Below are positions 12,765 through 44,664 of a DNA stretch of 64,000 nucleotides, in pieces. The position numbers and the translations under genes were made by a program. Every line of letters starts with the position of its first letter. The first letter of the stretch is position 1. The DNA comes from Variovorax paradoxus (GTDB lineage Bacteria; Pseudomonadota; Gammaproteobacteria; Burkholderiales; Burkholderiaceae_C). The stretch spans positions 3,780,001 through 3,844,000 of the forward strand of contig NZ_CP102931.1 of the NCBI RefSeq assembly GCF_024734665.1, given 5' to 3'. Below the pieces are notes generated by a model that saw nothing but the letters and a program-made list of their open reading frames with translations, was not told the origin of the DNA and did not search any database.

Positions 12765-13177
12765 TCCGCTTCGTTGAGAAGAGGGTTGTCGTTGCGCACC
12801 GGCTCGGCCTGCGAGCTGGCGACCGGATGCTCCATGCGATTGATCAGCGAGATCACCACCGCGCAGACGGCAACGGCCGCCAGCGCCGAAAGTAGTGCGA
12901 CAGGTCCACCGCGCAACGCGGAAACCATGTCCTGCTGCGCCGCCATGGCGACCACCACCGGGATGTACATGGCGCCCCAGTACTCCACGCCCAGTTCGGT
13001 CAACTTGGGCAGGATGCCCTTCCTGTTCATGTAGATGCGCGCCGTGATGAGCAGCAGCATCGCGATGCCCACGCCGCCGACGTTGGTCTTTACGCCCAGC
13101 GCCTGACCCAGCAGGTCGCCCAGAAAAATGCCCAGCAGATGGCACAAGGCCAGCAGCGCGGTGCCGTAGATGATCAT
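12761..13177 (-). CDS. madL: Malonate transporter subunit MadL
   Basis: A 138-residue membrane protein, the small subunit of MadLM. It begins MIIYGTALLALCHLLGIFLG and has about four hydrophobic stretches with a polar C-terminal tail. GGAG precedes the ATG by about ten bases. It is the first structural gene of the malonate operon, 145 bases downstream of mdcR on the same strand. Confidence 0.9.
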   Translation of the reverse strand: MIIYGTALLALCHLLGIFLGDLLGQALGVKTNVGGVGIAMLLLITARIYMNRKGILPKLTELGVEYWGAMYIPVVVAMAAQQDMVSALRGGPVALLSALAAVAVCAVVISLINRMEHPVASSQAEPVRNDNPLLNEAE

Positions 13178-38484: not shown

Positions 38485-39201
38485 TCACAAGCCAGCGGCA
38501 ATTGCCGGTTGCATCGCGGCGCCTGCGGATTCGGCCAGGCGCTGCGCCACGGCATTCAGGAGCGCGCCAGCAAAGCCGCCACGCGCCCGTGCATCGGTGC
38601 GGGCGCTGGTCACGACCCGTGGCCGTGAACTCCAGGCAACGCTGCAGCCGGCATCGACCAGCGCATTCACCAGGGCGACGTCCTCGCTGCACGCGAGGTG
38701 CCTGAACCCGCCGACACGAAGATACGCCGCCGCCGAGACGCCAAGGTTTGCGCCATGCACATGGCGATGAGATTCGCAGTCGAAATAGGTCTCCTGGAAA
38801 TGTGCCTCGAGCAGCGCTGCATGGCGGCCGTGAGGCGACCAGTCCAGCACGGACACCGTTCCGCATACGACGTCTGTCTGAAGAGATAGTTGGGCCGCCA
38901 GCCAGTCTTCGGAGACCAGCGTGTCGGCATCGGTGAACGCCAGCCATCTCGCGCCCCTTGCCAGCAGAGCCTTCGCACCCACGGCCCGGGCCATTCCGAC
39001 ATTTCGCGCGCGAATGGTGACGGTCATGGCGCCACAGCTGGACGCCAGGATGCCTGTGGCGTCCGCGCAGTCGTCCAGCGCCACGATCGTCTCCACGGGC
39101 TCTCCCATCAGTGCGGGGTGCTGCGATGCGATGCGCACTGAAGACAGGCATCCGCGGATGAGTTGCTCTTCGTTGTGCGCCGGGATGACGATACCTAGCA
39201 T
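38485..39201 (-). CDS. Family 2 glycosyltransferase
   Basis: A 238-residue GT-A-fold transferase without membrane helices. It begins MLGIVIPAHNEEQLI, has the metal-binding FTDADTLVSEDW (DxD) and the acceptor-side CSEDVALVNALVDAG (ED). The ATG at 39201 has GAGG eight bases upstream. It probably transfers a sugar from a nucleotide sugar to a small or lipid acceptor. It diverges from Dps and the dehydrogenase, deacetylase and methyltransferase genes, a grouping I recall from other proteobacteria. An antisense frame across it is composition noise. Confidence 0.87.
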   Translation of the reverse strand: MLGIVIPAHNEEQLIRGCLSSVRIASQHPALMGEPVETIVALDDCADATGILASSCGAMTVTIRARNVGMARAVGAKALLARGARWLAFTDADTLVSEDWLAAQLSLQTDVVCGTVSVLDWSPHGRHAALLEAHFQETYFDCESHRHVHGANLGVSAAAYLRVGGFRHLACSEDVALVNALVDAGCSVAWSSRPRVVTSARTDARARGGFAGALLNAVAQRLAESAGAAMQPAIAAGL

Positions 39202-39419
39202 GGTCGAGCCCTCGTGCCGTTGTAGATCGGATTGCCTGCCAAGCACCGAAGATAGAGAGCCGCCCGCACACGCCACGTCAGGAGAAGCGCGGCGGGCCTG
39301 TAGGCGACAGACATCCGGGTCCGACGAAGAAAAACAGCCGCTCGAAGCGGGCGGCTGGACTACGTGCGGGCCACTGCACGGGTGCTAGAAGTCGATCTTC
39401 CAAATTCAGGAGCGCACCC

Positions 39420-40043
39420 ATGGCAGCATCAAAGAACGGCAAGTCAAAGGCGGCAGGCTCGCCGACTTCGCCAACCCCGGCGTCAGCGAAGGAAGTAAAG
39501 CCCAACCTGCATCAGCAGAGCCACGAGACGCAACGGTACGGGGAAATCATCAAGCTCCCCAACGGACTGTCGGAGAAGGTCTGCAAGCAAAGCGTGGCGC
39601 TGCTGAACCAGTGCCTGGCCGACACGATCACGCTGCGCGACATGTACAAGAAGCATCACTGGCAGGTAGTGGGCCCGACCTTCAACCAGTTGCACCTCAT
39701 GTACGACCAGCACTACGAAGGCCAGGTGCTGCTGGTGGACATCGTTGCCGAACGGATTCAGCTGCTTGGCGGCGTTGCGCTCGCCATGGCGCCCGACATC
39801 GCCGAAGCCACCAAGATCGCCAGGCCGCCGCGCGGGCGCGAACCGGCTGCCGTGCAATTGCGCCGGCTGGCCGAAGCCCATGAGCAGATCATCATCTCGG
39901 CGCGCGACGCGGCCGAGCAGGTCGACAAGTCCGGCGACGCCGGCAGCAACGACGTGTTCGTCAGCAATGTGCTTCGCACCAACGAACTGCAGGTGTGGTT
40001 TCTGACCGAGCACCTGGTCGCCGCTTCGCCGGTGACTGCCTGA
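39420..40043 (+). CDS. dps: Dps-like DNA-binding ferritin
   Basis: A 207-residue miniferritin that stores iron, detoxifies peroxide and may bind DNA through its N-terminus. The inter-subunit ferroxidase signature is visible: KKHHWQVVGPTFNQLHLMYD followed by HYEGQVLLVDIVAERIQLLG. A 30-residue Lys/Ser/Ala/Pro-rich N-terminal tail (AASKNGKSKAAGSPTSPTPA) would suit DNA binding. The product is longer than the usual 160-180 residues because of this tail and an extended C-terminus. It lies between the divergent glycosyltransferase and the dehydrogenase gene. Confidence 0.92.
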   Translation: MAASKNGKSKAAGSPTSPTPASAKEVKPNLHQQSHETQRYGEIIKLPNGLSEKVCKQSVALLNQCLADTITLRDMYKKHHWQVVGPTFNQLHLMYDQHYEGQVLLVDIVAERIQLLGGVALAMAPDIAEATKIARPPRGREPAAVQLRRLAEAHEQIIISARDAAEQVDKSGDAGSNDVFVSNVLRTNELQVWFLTEHLVAASPVTA

Positions 40044-40090
40044 CGCCGACCGGTGGTGCCAAAGGCTCCGTGCGATAGCCACTACTTCAC

Positions 40091-41101
40091 ATGTCTGAAC
40101 CCGCGCTCGCCGATGCCTTGCGGCAACTGCAGCTTCGCTACGGTTGCGACCTCGCGCTGAAGCATCTGGTCGACGCGGGTATCGACGTGCTTCCAAAACC
40201 GGGCGCCGGCCAGACCCTGGCGCGCTGGCGTGTGCTGGCCGATGTGGCGGCCCATGACCTTTCGTTGGTGAAGCTGTTCGAAGGGCATACCGATGCTCTC
40301 GCCATCCTCGCCGAACTCGGCGCCGCGTCGGCCGCACCCGCGGGTGCGCGCTGGGGCACCTGGTGCGCGGAGCCGCCCGACGCGCGCGTAGTGCTCGACG
40401 CGGCAGAGGGCCATCGCGTTCGCCTGACCGGCACCAAGGCCTGGTGCTCGGGCGCCGCAAGCGTGAGCCACGCCGTCGTGAGCTGCTGGAACGCGGCCGG
40501 CGAACCGTGCCTTGCGGCTGTGGCCATGGATCAGCCCAACGTACGTGTGACCAGCAATGGCTGGCATGCCGTCGGCATGGCAGCGAGCGCCAGTGTCGAT
40601 GTGCGGTTCGACCGCGCGGTGGCCACGCAGATCGGGCGGCCCGGCGACTACGTGAACCGCGCCGGCTTCTGGCAGGGTGGCGCCGGCATCGCGGCATGCT
40701 GGTTCGGCGGCGCGTTCGGCATTGCGCGCGCGGTTCATCAGCGCGCGGGACCGGCGCCAGACGCCCATCGCCTCGCGCACATTGGCGCCATCGAAGCGGC
40801 CTTGACCGCGGCCGCTGCGCAACTGCGAGAGGCCGCAGCCTGGATCGACCGGCACCCTGAAGACAACGCACAGCGCATCGCCTTGCGCGCACGCCTCGCC
40901 GTCGAGCAGGCGGCCAACGACGTCATGCACCACGCCGGCCGCGCGGTCGGCGCCGGCCCGCTGTGCCGTGACCCGTACTTCGCCCGTGCGATGGCGGACC
41001 TGCCCGTGTTCCTTCGCCAGAGCCACGCCGAGCGCGATCTTGCGGCGCTCGGCCAGCTCGCCGTGAACGAGAAAGAGGAGCCTTCGTCATGGGCGCTGTA
41101 G
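40091..41101 (+). CDS. Acyl-CoA/acyl-ACP dehydrogenase-like flavoprotein
   Basis: A 336-residue protein resembling acyl-CoA dehydrogenases: the middle beta region RLTGTKAWCSGAASVSHAVV (FAD-binding GxKxWxSGA pattern) and a helical C-terminal region with a final SHAERDLAALG. It is shorter than the usual 380 residues, mainly at the N-terminal helical domain, and I cannot place a catalytic Glu. It overlaps the PIG-L gene by 13 bases. With that gene and the methyltransferase it forms a tight operon, so its substrate may be an acyl or amine group on a carrier or sugar rather than a beta-oxidation intermediate. Confidence 0.78.
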   Translation: MSEPALADALRQLQLRYGCDLALKHLVDAGIDVLPKPGAGQTLARWRVLADVAAHDLSLVKLFEGHTDALAILAELGAASAAPAGARWGTWCAEPPDARVVLDAAEGHRVRLTGTKAWCSGAASVSHAVVSCWNAAGEPCLAAVAMDQPNVRVTSNGWHAVGMAASASVDVRFDRAVATQIGRPGDYVNRAGFWQGGAGIAACWFGGAFGIARAVHQRAGPAPDAHRLAHIGAIEAALTAAAAQLREAAAWIDRHPEDNAQRIALRARLAVEQAANDVMHHAGRAVGAGPLCRDPYFARAMADLPVFLRQSHAERDLAALGQLAVNEKEEPSSWAL

Positions 41102-41847
41102 CACGCCGCGCCATTCGGGGCGAGGGCACCACCGAGATCGAGTGGAGCCGCTGGCCCGGCCTTGCACGCCTGCCCGCGATCGCGCCGCAAGAGCTGGTTC
41201 CGCAAAGCGCACGCGCCGTGGTCGTCGCGCCCCACCCCGACGACGAGGTGCTCTCGGTCGGTGGCCTGCTCGCGCTATTGGCCGACTGCGGCAGGCCCGT
41301 TGAAGTGATCGCCGTCACCGACGGCACTGCCAGTCACCGCGGCTCGACCGAATGGCCCGTCGAACGGCTCGCGCGGACCCGGCCGCGGGAGAGCCGAAAG
41401 GCACTGCACTGCCTGGGCCTGGCCATCGAGCCCGCACGGCTGGGCCTGCCCGACGGCGGCCTGAAGGGGCTGCGCGCCTTGCTCGCGGCCGAGCTCGTGT
41501 CCCTGCTCCGGCCCGGTGACGTGGTGTTCACCACATGGCGCCAGGACGGCCATCCCGACCACGAAGCGACTGGCGAGGCCTGCGCGCTGGCGGCCGCAAG
41601 CACGGGCGCCCGGCTGGTGGAAGTGCCCGTCTGGGGCTGGCACTGGTCCCGCCCCGGCGATGCGCGCATGCCCTGGCAGCGCGCCTTTCGGCTTCCGCTG
41701 AGCGAAGAGGCCGTGCGGCGCAAGCGCATGGCAGTCAAGGCTTTCACCAGCCAGTTGCAGCGCGATGCGTCCACCGGCTCGGGCCCGGTGCTTCGCGCCA
41801 CCACCGTCCAGCGCGCGGCGCGCCCCTTCGAGGTGGTCTTTCTTTGA
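41089..41847 (+). CDS. PIG-L (LmbE) family N-deacetylase
   Basis: A 252-residue zinc hydrolase. The metal-binding motif VVVAPHPDDEVLSVGG (His49, Asp51, Asp52) and the downstream GHPDHEATG (His155, His158) are intact, so it should be active. Family members deacetylate N-acetylglucosamine linked to lipids, inositol or small thiols. It overlaps the dehydrogenase by 13 bases and precedes the methyltransferase by nine. The pairing with a NodS-like methyltransferase suggests the freed amino group is then methylated. Confidence 0.88.
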   Translation: MGAVARRAIRGEGTTEIEWSRWPGLARLPAIAPQELVPQSARAVVVAPHPDDEVLSVGGLLALLADCGRPVEVIAVTDGTASHRGSTEWPVERLARTRPRESRKALHCLGLAIEPARLGLPDGGLKGLRALLAAELVSLLRPGDVVFTTWRQDGHPDHEATGEACALAAASTGARLVEVPVWGWHWSRPGDARMPWQRAFRLPLSEEAVRRKRMAVKAFTSQLQRDASTGSGPVLRATTVQRAARPFEVVFL

Positions 41848-41856
41848 GCAGCGGCA

Positions 41857-42459
41857 ATGAATGACCAGCGGCCCTATTTCGAATCGCTCTACGCGGCCAG
41901 CGAAGACCCCTACGCGCTGCGCCACCGCTGGTACGAGGCTCGCAAGCGGGCGCTGCTGCTGGCCGCCTTGCCGCAGGAGCGCTACCGAAGCGGCTACGAG
42001 CCCGGCTGCGGCACCGGCGAACTCACGCTCGCCCTTTCGCAACGCTGCGACCACCTGCTGGCAAGTGACTTCTCGGCGCATGCCGTGGACATTGCGCGCA
42101 AGCGCACCGGCGGGCTCGCCAACGTGCACGTCGCACACCACGTGCTGCCTGCCGACTGGCCGCGCGAGGCCGGCCGCTTCGACCTCATCGTGCTGAGCGA
42201 ACTGGGCTACTTCCTCGACCACAACGACATGCACCTGCTGGCCGCCCGCTGCCAGGACACTCTGGAGGCCGATGGCACCCTGGTGGCCTGCGACTGGCGG
42301 CCTGATTTCGCACAGCGCAGGCTTCCCACGCAGGAAGTACACGGCGCGCTGGCCTCGCTCGGCCTGGCACGCCTGGTGTTCCACGAGGAAGACGATTTCG
42401 TGCTCCAGGTCTGGACACGCGATGGCCGCTCGGTAGCTGAGCGGGAGGGCATCCGGTAA
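41857..42459 (+). CDS. NodS-like SAM-dependent methyltransferase
   Basis: A 200-residue class I methyltransferase. The SAM-binding motif YEPGCGTGELTLAL (about residues 47-60) is preceded by the N-terminal YFESLYAASEDPYALRHRWY stretch typical of the NodS family, whose founding member N-methylates deacetylated chito-oligosaccharides. In some genomes, from memory, this domain is fused to a PIG-L deacetylase, which would fit the adjacency here. It is the last gene of the three-gene plus-strand operon. Confidence 0.86.
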   Translation: MNDQRPYFESLYAASEDPYALRHRWYEARKRALLLAALPQERYRSGYEPGCGTGELTLALSQRCDHLLASDFSAHAVDIARKRTGGLANVHVAHHVLPADWPREAGRFDLIVLSELGYFLDHNDMHLLAARCQDTLEADGTLVACDWRPDFAQRRLPTQEVHGALASLGLARLVFHEEDDFVLQVWTRDGRSVAEREGIR

Positions 42460-42612
42460 TCGGCGGCGTCGTTGTCCGGTATCGCAGCCCTCTGCTCCAG
42501 CTCGGCGAGTTACCTTTTGCCTGGCAACCGGAAGTGCCGGTGGACGAGGGCTCGAAAACCGACCATCGTCCTTCTCGCTGCTTCGAAGAACACCCGCATT
42601 GGCAGCGGAAAG

Positions 42613-43011
42613 TCATTCGCCCTTTGCCGTTGGCGCGGGCGCTTCCGTGTGCATGACACATCGCCAGGCATCGCCGTCACGGATCCACGTCGACGTGTCC
42701 GTCATGTGCTGCTCCACCTTTTCGGACTTTCCTCTCGGCGACAGAATCTGATGGACTTTGTAGCTCAGGACAGCGGCTCCATCGCTGGGGAAGGTGGCCT
42801 CCATCTCGCTCAGCGAGAACGATTTGACGACCATGGTTCCTTGCTCTGCCATTTTTCGGTAGCCAGCATGGTCAAACTTCATCGAGCCATGAGAGCTCAC
42901 CATGAAGGCTGGCTCATGCAACAACTCGATGGCCGTGTCCGTGTCGGTGTCCACCATCGACTGCCAGAATTTCTTTTCAAGAGCGAAGAGCTCGCGGCTG
43001 TTGTCTTGCAT
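42613..43011 (-). CDS. SnoaL/NTF2-like protein (DUF4440 type)
   Basis: A 132-residue single-domain alpha+beta barrel protein: an N-terminal helix RELFALEKKFWQSMVDTDTD, then sheet strands with KVEQHMTDTSTWIRDGDAWR. AGGAG six bases before the ATG at 43011 gives the start. Such proteins can be small isomerases or binding proteins, and no catalytic residues can be assigned. It is transcribed alone, convergent with the methyltransferase gene. Confidence 0.75.
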   Translation of the reverse strand: MQDNSRELFALEKKFWQSMVDTDTDTAIELLHEPAFMVSSHGSMKFDHAGYRKMAEQGTMVVKSFSLSEMEATFPSDGAAVLSYKVHQILSPRGKSEKVEQHMTDTSTWIRDGDAWRCVMHTEAPAPTAKGE

Positions 43012-43452: not shown

Positions 43453-44664
43453 ATGAGCACGATTTCCCGCAGCCGCATGCGCGCGGTCCTGGTTGGCTGC
43501 GCCTATATCTTTGCTATCGCCATTGCGCCGTCTTCGGCGTTCGCCGAAGCCAATGCGAGCGACGCCCCAGTGGCGAAGCCAGAGCTCTATGCAGAACTGG
43601 ATGCCGCCGGCGTCGGCGGCATTACCCAGTTGGGCAACGGCCAGATCGTGATCGGCTACCACCCCTTCTACTCACCGACAGTGCAGGTCGCCTTACTGAA
43701 CAAGGACCGCAAGTCCACAACGCCCTATCCAAGTGCCGAATGGCAGAGTTGCAAGAACCCCGACGGCAGCTGGAAAAAGGAATTCGACCACTGCCTCGAC
43801 TGGGTGCTTGGCCTGCACACAGACAGCAAGGGAATCCTCTGGATGCTGGATTCGGCCAAATCGGTCGACAAGGCATCAGGGCGTCCCGCTGGCCTGGTTC
43901 CCAAGTTGGTGGGGTGGAACACCCGGCGCAACAAATTAGAGCGCGTCATACGAATCACCGATGAGGCGACGGTCACAGAGTCACAGCACAACGACTTCGT
44001 CGTGGACGCAAAGCACAACGTGATTGTTGTGGCGGACGAGGCGATCGGCGAGGATTCCAAAGGTACGGGCGACAAGGCGGCGCTGGTGGTCGTCGATCTT
44101 GCGACCGGCAAGAGTCGACGTCTTTTGCAAGGGCACCCGAGCGTTCAGCCCGTCAAGGACCCCATCCGGTGGGACCAAGGCACGTCGACCGCCGGGACCT
44201 TCGCGCTTCATGTCGGCGTGGACGGCATCGCACTGGATCACCGCAGCGAATGGCTCTATTTCGCACCGCTTTCCGGCTACAAGATGTACCGCATTCGCAT
44301 GAGCGATTTGCTCAATCGCAAGCTCGATGCAACCCAGCTGGGCGCCAAGGTCCAGACCTATGCCGACAAGCCTTTCAACGGCGGCCTGTCGATTGACCGA
44401 GACAACAATCTGTACCTCACCGAGGTCGGCGAACGCGCCATTGGCATCATTCCGCCGGACACCCGAAAGTACCGTCGCCTTGTCGCTGATCCTGACATGG
44501 TGTGGCCCGATGGCGTGACCTACAACAGTGACGGCCACATGTACACCGGCGCAGCACAACTGACATTGACGAGCGCCTTGCAAGCCGATGGCATTGCGAA
44601 GAACAAGGCACCCTATCGGGTCTACCGCTTCAAGCCACTCGCCGCCGGCCAGCCGGGTTTCTGA
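43453..44664 (+). CDS. Exported major royal jelly / yellow-family protein
   Basis: A 403-residue beta-propeller protein with a signal peptide (AVLVGCAYIFAIAIAPSSAFA). The stretches DWVLGLHTDSKGILWMLDSA, HNDFVVDAKHNVIVVADEA and DGIALDHRSEWLYFAPLSGY follow the royal-jelly-protein fold. Bacterial members are poorly characterised; lactonase-like activity is a possibility because the fold is close to SMP-30. Its stop lies one base before the start of the next gene, so the two probably act together in the periplasm. Confidence 0.8.
   Translation: MSTISRSRMRAVLVGCAYIFAIAIAPSSAFAEANASDAPVAKPELYAELDAAGVGGITQLGNGQIVIGYHPFYSPTVQVALLNKDRKSTTPYPSAEWQSCKNPDGSWKKEFDHCLDWVLGLHTDSKGILWMLDSAKSVDKASGRPAGLVPKLVGWNTRRNKLERVIRITDEATVTESQHNDFVVDAKHNVIVVADEAIGEDSKGTGDKAALVVVDLATGKSRRLLQGHPSVQPVKDPIRWDQGTSTAGTFALHVGVDGIALDHRSEWLYFAPLSGYKMYRIRMSDLLNRKLDATQLGAKVQTYADKPFNGGLSIDRDNNLYLTEVGERAIGIIPPDTRKYRRLVADPDMVWPDGVTYNSDGHMYTGAAQLTLTSALQADGIAKNKAPYRVYRFKPLAAGQPGF

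Follow-up and report, generated by a model that had tools for sequence, protein, structure and literature searches.

The window analysed here, a stretch of 64,000 nucleotides from Variovorax paradoxus, holds genes of four enzyme families that are inherited as one unit. They encode a soluble family 2 glycosyltransferase of GT-A fold (GT; 38485..39201, minus strand), assigned from its open reading frame (ORF), Pfam, an alignment with relatives and structure comparison; a protein of the acyl-CoA-dehydrogenase fold (the ACAD-like protein; 40091..41101, plus strand), which from profiles and a predicted structure is best read as a flavin monooxygenase of the DszC/KijD3 type; a PIG-L/LmbE-type N-deacetylase (41089..41847, plus strand), recognized by Pfam PF02585 and invariant motif residues; and a NodS-like S-adenosylmethionine-dependent methyltransferase (MT; 41857..42459, plus strand), recognized by Pfam and by a profile match to solved structures. 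We suggest tentatively that the four form a patchily distributed cytosolic pathway that would glycosylate a small acceptor, N-deacetylate and N-methylate the attached sugar and then oxygenate what results, to yield a soluble protective product, a reading that we consider plausible if somewhat short of probable.

The strictest test of co-inheritance is the all-or-none pattern within the genus. Among 25 Variovorax genomes searched at E 1e-20, the same 12 hold ACAD, GT, MT and PIG-L and the remaining 13 hold none; PIG-L is split over contig ends in one genome (G599) and ACAD likewise in another (G602), and three of the 13 negative genomes are just 62-89% complete. Five genomes of the genus (G593, G594, G599, G609 and G616) carry two GT orthologues each, and G593 carries two MT orthologues as well.

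The pattern extends to wider samples. Among 200 genomes of the order, an ACAD orthologue is present in nine (217 bits or more; next match 28.7), GT in exactly those nine (273 bits or more; next 80.2), PIG-L in seven, all among the nine (204 bits or more; next 105.5), and MT in the nine plus one other (213 bits or more; next 89.5). This last genome, G095 (L136), has its MT orthologue at 213 bits and no ACAD, GT or PIG-L orthologue. Across 397 genomes of the phylum, strong ACAD matches (259 bits or more) occur in 25, about 6%, and strong GT matches (at least 240 bits) in 24, each of them one of those 25, an overlap with a hypergeometric probability of 1.3e-37 when phylogeny is ignored. At E 1e-20 the counts rise to 36 genomes for ACAD and 31 for GT; five of the seven extra GT genomes coincide with members of the additional 11 for ACAD, and the other two (G355, G014) are without ACAD. 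We did not treat the weaker ACAD matches (91-145 bits, from 11 genomes that lie outside the class) as orthologues. Nine such loci were examined, and MT lies beside ACAD in all nine and PIG-L in seven; one of the two loci without PIG-L, L179, has N at 13,000 of its 19,001 bases. One genome, G348, has ACAD and MT and lacks a GT orthologue throughout; its 18-kb stretch shows no PIG-L.

A preliminary description of this DNA had proposed one pathway of four families, and had named a lack of conserved co-occurrence as what would speak against it; the within-genus and phylum profiles contradict such a lack. The same profiles bear on the possibility that the four genes belong to separate pathways and are merely neighbours, an idea to which the window itself lends some colour in that a gene for a Dps-like ferritin stands between the other three genes and its GT, which is encoded on the opposite strand. 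All-or-none presence in genus and phylum, unlinked copies included, already contradicts this account, and we regard it as scarcely credible.

The recurrence of the four families in other genomes, which the preliminary description had put forward, was confirmed as real and strong by a survey of gene neighbourhoods. With the ACAD-like protein alone as bait, we collected 87 loci, seven from plasmids and 80 from genome contigs, the latter chosen as the top 80 among at least 503 relatives, so that Variovorax and Pseudomonas are over-represented. All four families are found in 55 loci, ACAD, PIG-L and MT in 20, ACAD, GT and MT in ten, ACAD and PIG-L in one, and ACAD alone in one (L087). A search of shorter frames adds a single GT, in L092, where it is cut by the contig end right after MT; a second, full-length match to GT lies at another place in that genome. 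The genera represented include Variovorax, Pseudomonas, Paraburkholderia, Caballeronia and Achromobacter, and further Halomonas, Salinicola, Acinetobacter, Legionella and Kitasatospora. As a control, eight loci of weak ACAD paralogues (L011-L016, L018, L019) had no partner within 1.5 kb flanks, whereas all eight loci L003-L010 had at least two partners within the same flanks. The window's 13-base overlap of ACAD and PIG-L is shared by 45 of the 74 loci with a computed distance, in ten genera, with three loci that gave implausible distances scored as misses.

Several loci depart from the common arrangement. In Cupriavidus basilensis (L021) the usual PIG-L between ACAD and MT is missing, and another gene of the PIG-L family (L021:5976-6698) stands beside a catalase gene about 3 kb away; it may substitute for the usual PIG-L. 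Some Pseudomonas-type loci (L073, L095, L105, L191) have a second PIG-L, at 227-236 bits to the orthologue profile. A 506-residue protein (P0040) considered as a gene fusion shows nothing but a long N-terminal extension.

Loci that appear to be without GT generally have it at another site. Twenty of the 22 (all except L037 and L038, and with L092 among them) were searched, and GT was found elsewhere in the genome for 18, and in G116. The distance matrices of ACAD and GT correlate with r 0.866 for 66 linked pairs, and 12 unlinked GTs co-vary with their own ACAD (r 0.874; best of 500 shuffles 0.468), a correlation that shared species history alone would also raise.

The four genes are under purifying selection, with dN/dS of 0.08-0.31 against four Variovorax loci, GT synonymous sites being near saturation for three of these. 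The catalytic motifs were found intact, as had been described: the eight PIG-L motif residues (H49, D51, D52, E53, D153, H155, D157 and H158) are invariant in 93 of 93 rows of the alignment, and the GT DxD is kept in 94 of 95, the remaining row being a gap. No stops are listed inside matches to any of the four families in the 12 same-genus genomes, nor inside orthologue-level matches in the order search for PIG-L and the phylum search for ACAD. Two MT matches (G127, G130) and one GT match (G491) contain one stop each, possibly the gene's own end.

The history of GT in the window differs from that of its partners. The window ACAD is 95% identical to that of Variovorax gossypii, 86% to that of V. 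boronicumulans (L028) and 85% to that of V. paradoxus L029. In the GT tree the window GT groups with V. gossypii, apart from the GTs of L028 and L029, and it is far more diverged from these two than the other three genes are. Because of this placement and excess divergence against a high ACAD identity, we suggest that a different member of this orthologue group has probably taken the place of the original GT and now lies across Dps; a GT was nevertheless retained.

The gene positions given in the preliminary description were borne out by the ORF list, except for the start of GT. An upstream GTG at 39276 had been taken as the start, probably making the ORF 25 codons too long; the ATG at 39201 is probably the true start, because seven relatives in the alignment begin at the residue that would be M26 of the longer frame. 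The 13-base overlap of ACAD and PIG-L and the 9-base gap before MT are as described. A region of 218 bases (39202-39419) separates the divergent GT and Dps genes, and 47 bases separate the end of Dps from the ACAD-PIG-L-MT run, with which Dps is perhaps co-transcribed in the window. No sigma-70-type promoter was found in 39100-42700.

GT reaches PF00535 at 47.7 bits (cut-off 23.3) and scores 339 bits to the orthologue profile, in which it is itself included. The NCBIfam models nearest to the GT members are TIGR04283 (8 of 8) and MftF (5 of 8); the window GT misses the TIGR04283 arsenosugar glycosyltransferase equivalog cut-off (45.1 against 182 bits), and, in contrast to these family 2 enzymes, GT has its own HRH[IV]HGANLG motif. 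Its donor sugar was not identified by Foldseek or VIA. MT matches Methyltransf_25 at 46.8 bits (cut-off 27) and Pfam NodS at 37.7 bits (cut-off 24), and by profile it matches the NodS structure 3ofj (2.1e-27) and a close relative, 4isc (3.6e-65); it misses the NCBIfam NodS equivalog cut-off, at 45.1 against 300 bits. An anti-phage role was considered and rejected, the sole PADLOC match being that of MT to mad2 at 50.4 bits.

The PIG-L protein reaches PF02585 at 92.7 bits (cut-off 28.2), and its best solved relatives are diacetylchitobiose deacetylases. Its best NCBIfam model is BshB1, and the pairs MshA/MshB and BshA/BshB follow the same scheme, in which a GT and a PIG-L enzyme work on a small acceptor. 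The set might thus be thought to make a cofactor of the bacillithiol or mycothiol kind, in which the glucosaminyl conjugate is methylated rather than joined to cysteine. The scores argue otherwise, since PIG-L misses the cut-offs of BshB1 (60.5 against 182.5 bits), BshB2 (39.4 against 195.25) and MshB (19 against 224.35). Furthermore, no cysteine ligase is found among the annotated neighbour clusters, and the GT of the set is of family 2 whereas MshA and BshA are of family 4. A thiol-cofactor-like product seems to us very improbable. As had been stated before, no product is assigned to the set: none of the family models matched by the four proteins names one.

The ACAD-like protein is the least expected member. 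In Pfam it reaches just the acyl-CoA dehydrogenase middle domain, below the cut-off (24.7 against 33.3 bits), with no other domain match. Its best solved profile matches are DszC/TdsC. For its predicted structure (pLDDT 93.2), Foldseek ranks 1-7 go to TdsC, to MsuC and to KijD3, an amino-sugar nitrososynthase, with FMN and an amino-sugar nucleotide; DszC and DnmZ rank lower. In acyl-CoA dehydrogenases the catalytic residue is a Glu. The position aligned to the catalytic Glu of a dehydrogenase-type relative (L011) is S311 in the window, and over 108 rows it is S in 92, P in 7, C in 2, A in 2 and H, Q, N, G or T in one each, and never Glu. His66 is present in 107 of the 108 rows, with one gap, and, like the CSGA loop, it aligns with its counterpart in proteins of the DszC type. 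It is because of this position and these matching elements that we favour a monooxygenase. Not every measure agrees: Foldseek rank 8 is a structure titled putative acyl-CoA dehydrogenase (5gj7), VIA-align gives a tie between monooxygenase and dehydrogenase kinds, and hhalign scores the protein slightly higher to the dehydrogenase-type L011 (63.1) than to the DszC-type L018 of the same genome (53.1), all of which weigh against this assignment.

If the protein were instead a true acyl-CoA or acyl-carrier dehydrogenase, it could supply an N-acyl amino sugar with an acyl group that is unsaturated, and the product would be a lipid-like glycoconjugate, as in the Nod-factor parallel. The missing Glu and the monooxygenases at the head of the profile matches argue against this, as does the lack of an acyltransferase, carrier or ligase among the ten annotated neighbour clusters, and we consider a dehydrogenase decidedly unlikely. 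The earlier label of acyl-CoA dehydrogenase-like thus holds for the fold; it does not extend to the catalytic Glu, and by profile and most top Foldseek ranks the nearest proteins are flavin monooxygenases. An acyl step is made less likely by the absent Glu and the nearness to monooxygenases.

With a flavin monooxygenase as the fourth enzyme, the family assignments point to a pathway whose substrates, step order, methylation and oxygenation sites and protective role we infer from the families. GT would use a sugar nucleotide as donor and attach its N-acetylated amino sugar to a small acceptor, the PIG-L enzyme would strip the N-acetyl group, MT would methylate the freed amine, and the ACAD-like protein would oxygenate the resulting molecule, for which the amino-sugar nitrogen is the simplest site. 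The order of sugar transfer, N-deacetylation and N-methylation in the preliminary description fits these assignments; the glycoconjugate that it envisaged is likelier to be a small cytosolic molecule than a surface structure, because a membrane-length hydrophobic stretch is absent from all four proteins (maximum 1.36 over 19 residues). The product would probably be a soluble protective metabolite.

A stress role is suggested by the surroundings of the set in certain genomes. In Comamonas antarctica and C. endophytica the genes form a single run, otsA-ACAD-PIGL-MT-GT-otsB, with ends overlapping or nearly abutting, and on Acinetobacter plasmids catalase, DUF421, iron redox enzyme and trehalose genes share an island with the set. 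These are mobilizable plasmids of several Acinetobacter species (L024, L195-L197) with IS elements nearby; otsA is present in four of four, and catalase, DUF421 and the iron-containing redox enzyme in three of four. Genes for OtsA, OtsB or both are also near the set in Legionella lytica (otsB as annotated), Duganella L078 and G292. Cupriavidus has catalase and maltosyltransferase genes nearby, and Kitasatospora ferritin-like and spore photoproduct lyase genes. Catalase is near three of 13 unlinked GT loci (L133, L138 and L140, the first and last of which are closely related) and three additional ACAD loci (L143, L177, L185). Weighing against a general stress role, a sequence search of the 87 loci found OtsA/OtsB in three and KatE-type catalase in three.

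These surroundings raise the specific possibility of a stress-protectant pathway built on trehalose or a trehalose-like sugar, with OtsA/OtsB supplying the acceptor and the four enzymes decorating it. The Comamonas runs and the other nearby otsA and otsB genes favour it, whereas the count of 3 in 87 does not, and the catalase and ferritin-like genes found nearby may reflect shared regulation alone; we think a trehalose acceptor unlikely.

The Dps-like ferritin of the window (39420..40043, plus strand; PF00210, 5.8e-22, 78.6 bits against a cut-off of 24.5) does adjoin the set, as had been pointed out, but is not a conserved member, being found with it in one of the 87 other loci (L027, V. gossypii). 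Downstream lies a gene (43453-44664) whose product has a major royal jelly protein domain (PF03022, 4.1e-14). No fixed extra partner emerged: homology-clustered neighbours recur in up to 20 of the 87 loci and are mostly of large generic families. The ten annotated clusters comprise a LysR regulator, ABC ATPase, histidine kinase, TctC, HMGL-like protein, Crp-type regulator, short-chain dehydrogenase, long catalase and two without a match. Among the Pfam families listed (25 of 63 and 25 of 110) for 84 of 159 ACAD-locus neighbours and 70 of 105 unlinked-GT neighbours, all from a crude gene caller that misses genes, none is widely shared; those listed include response regulator (4 of 84) and alpha-amylase (3 of 84) at ACAD loci, and molybdopterin oxidoreductase (4 of 70) and catalase (3 of 70) around unlinked GTs. 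An EcfG-type promoter upstream of divergent operons outside the class found no support, the motif occurring within about 450 bases in two of nine ACAD loci.

A pathway that members of a genus either have in full or lack, and that reaches about 6% of the sampled phylum genomes, ought to yield a definite molecule, and its carriers include soil, plant-associated and clinical bacteria, among them Acinetobacter with the set on plasmids beside catalase and trehalose genes. The co-inheritance pattern turns four enzymes without apparent purpose into one question, namely which metabolite the set makes. Were the flavin enzyme to oxygenate the nitrogen of the sugar, the result would be a compound of unusual chemistry. 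Taken to its limit, which we regard as a quite improbable extrapolation, the product would be an amino-sugar conjugate, perhaps trehalose-based, that is both N-methylated and N-oxygenated, as a hydroxylamine or nitrone. It would represent a new class of stress metabolite in the cytosol, serving as osmolyte and radical trap, and would occur across Pseudomonadota and Actinomycetota, its genes having spread on chromosomes as well as plasmids.

The enzyme types themselves are known. The set, its product and the all-or-none way in which it is inherited seem not to have been described before; of the papers listed in full-text searches of an open-licence library, none is evidently about the four-gene set by its title or the start of its abstract, and article texts might mention the set. 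With the monooxygenases DszC, TdsC, SfnB/MsuC, KijD3 and DnmZ, the ACAD-like protein shares the fold, the lack of the catalytic Glu and the aligned His66 and CSGA loop. It differs in having about 20% identity to them, 336 residues against about 400 and its own conserved QSHAERD end, and it misses the cut-off of the SfnB equivalog TIGR04022 (31.8 against 430.9 bits). Bacillithiol and mycothiol synthesis resembles the set in joining a GT to a PIG-L deacetylase, but has a cysteine ligase where the set has MT and the flavin enzyme. Rhizobial Nod-factor synthesis proceeds through NodC, NodB and NodS by sugar transfer, N-deacetylation and N-methylation. The parallel drawn in the preliminary description holds in this three-step logic and in the likeness of MT to NodS by Pfam and by profile match to the NodS structure, though not at the level of the NodS equivalog. 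Neither a NodC synthase nor a NodA acyltransferase is present among the ten ORFs scanned at 35.9-45.5 kb, no genome-wide search having been made. The set thus has a small, soluble family 2 glycosyltransferase in contrast to the membrane enzyme NodC, a PIG-L enzyme where Nod-factor synthesis has the NodB family, and an added flavin enzyme.

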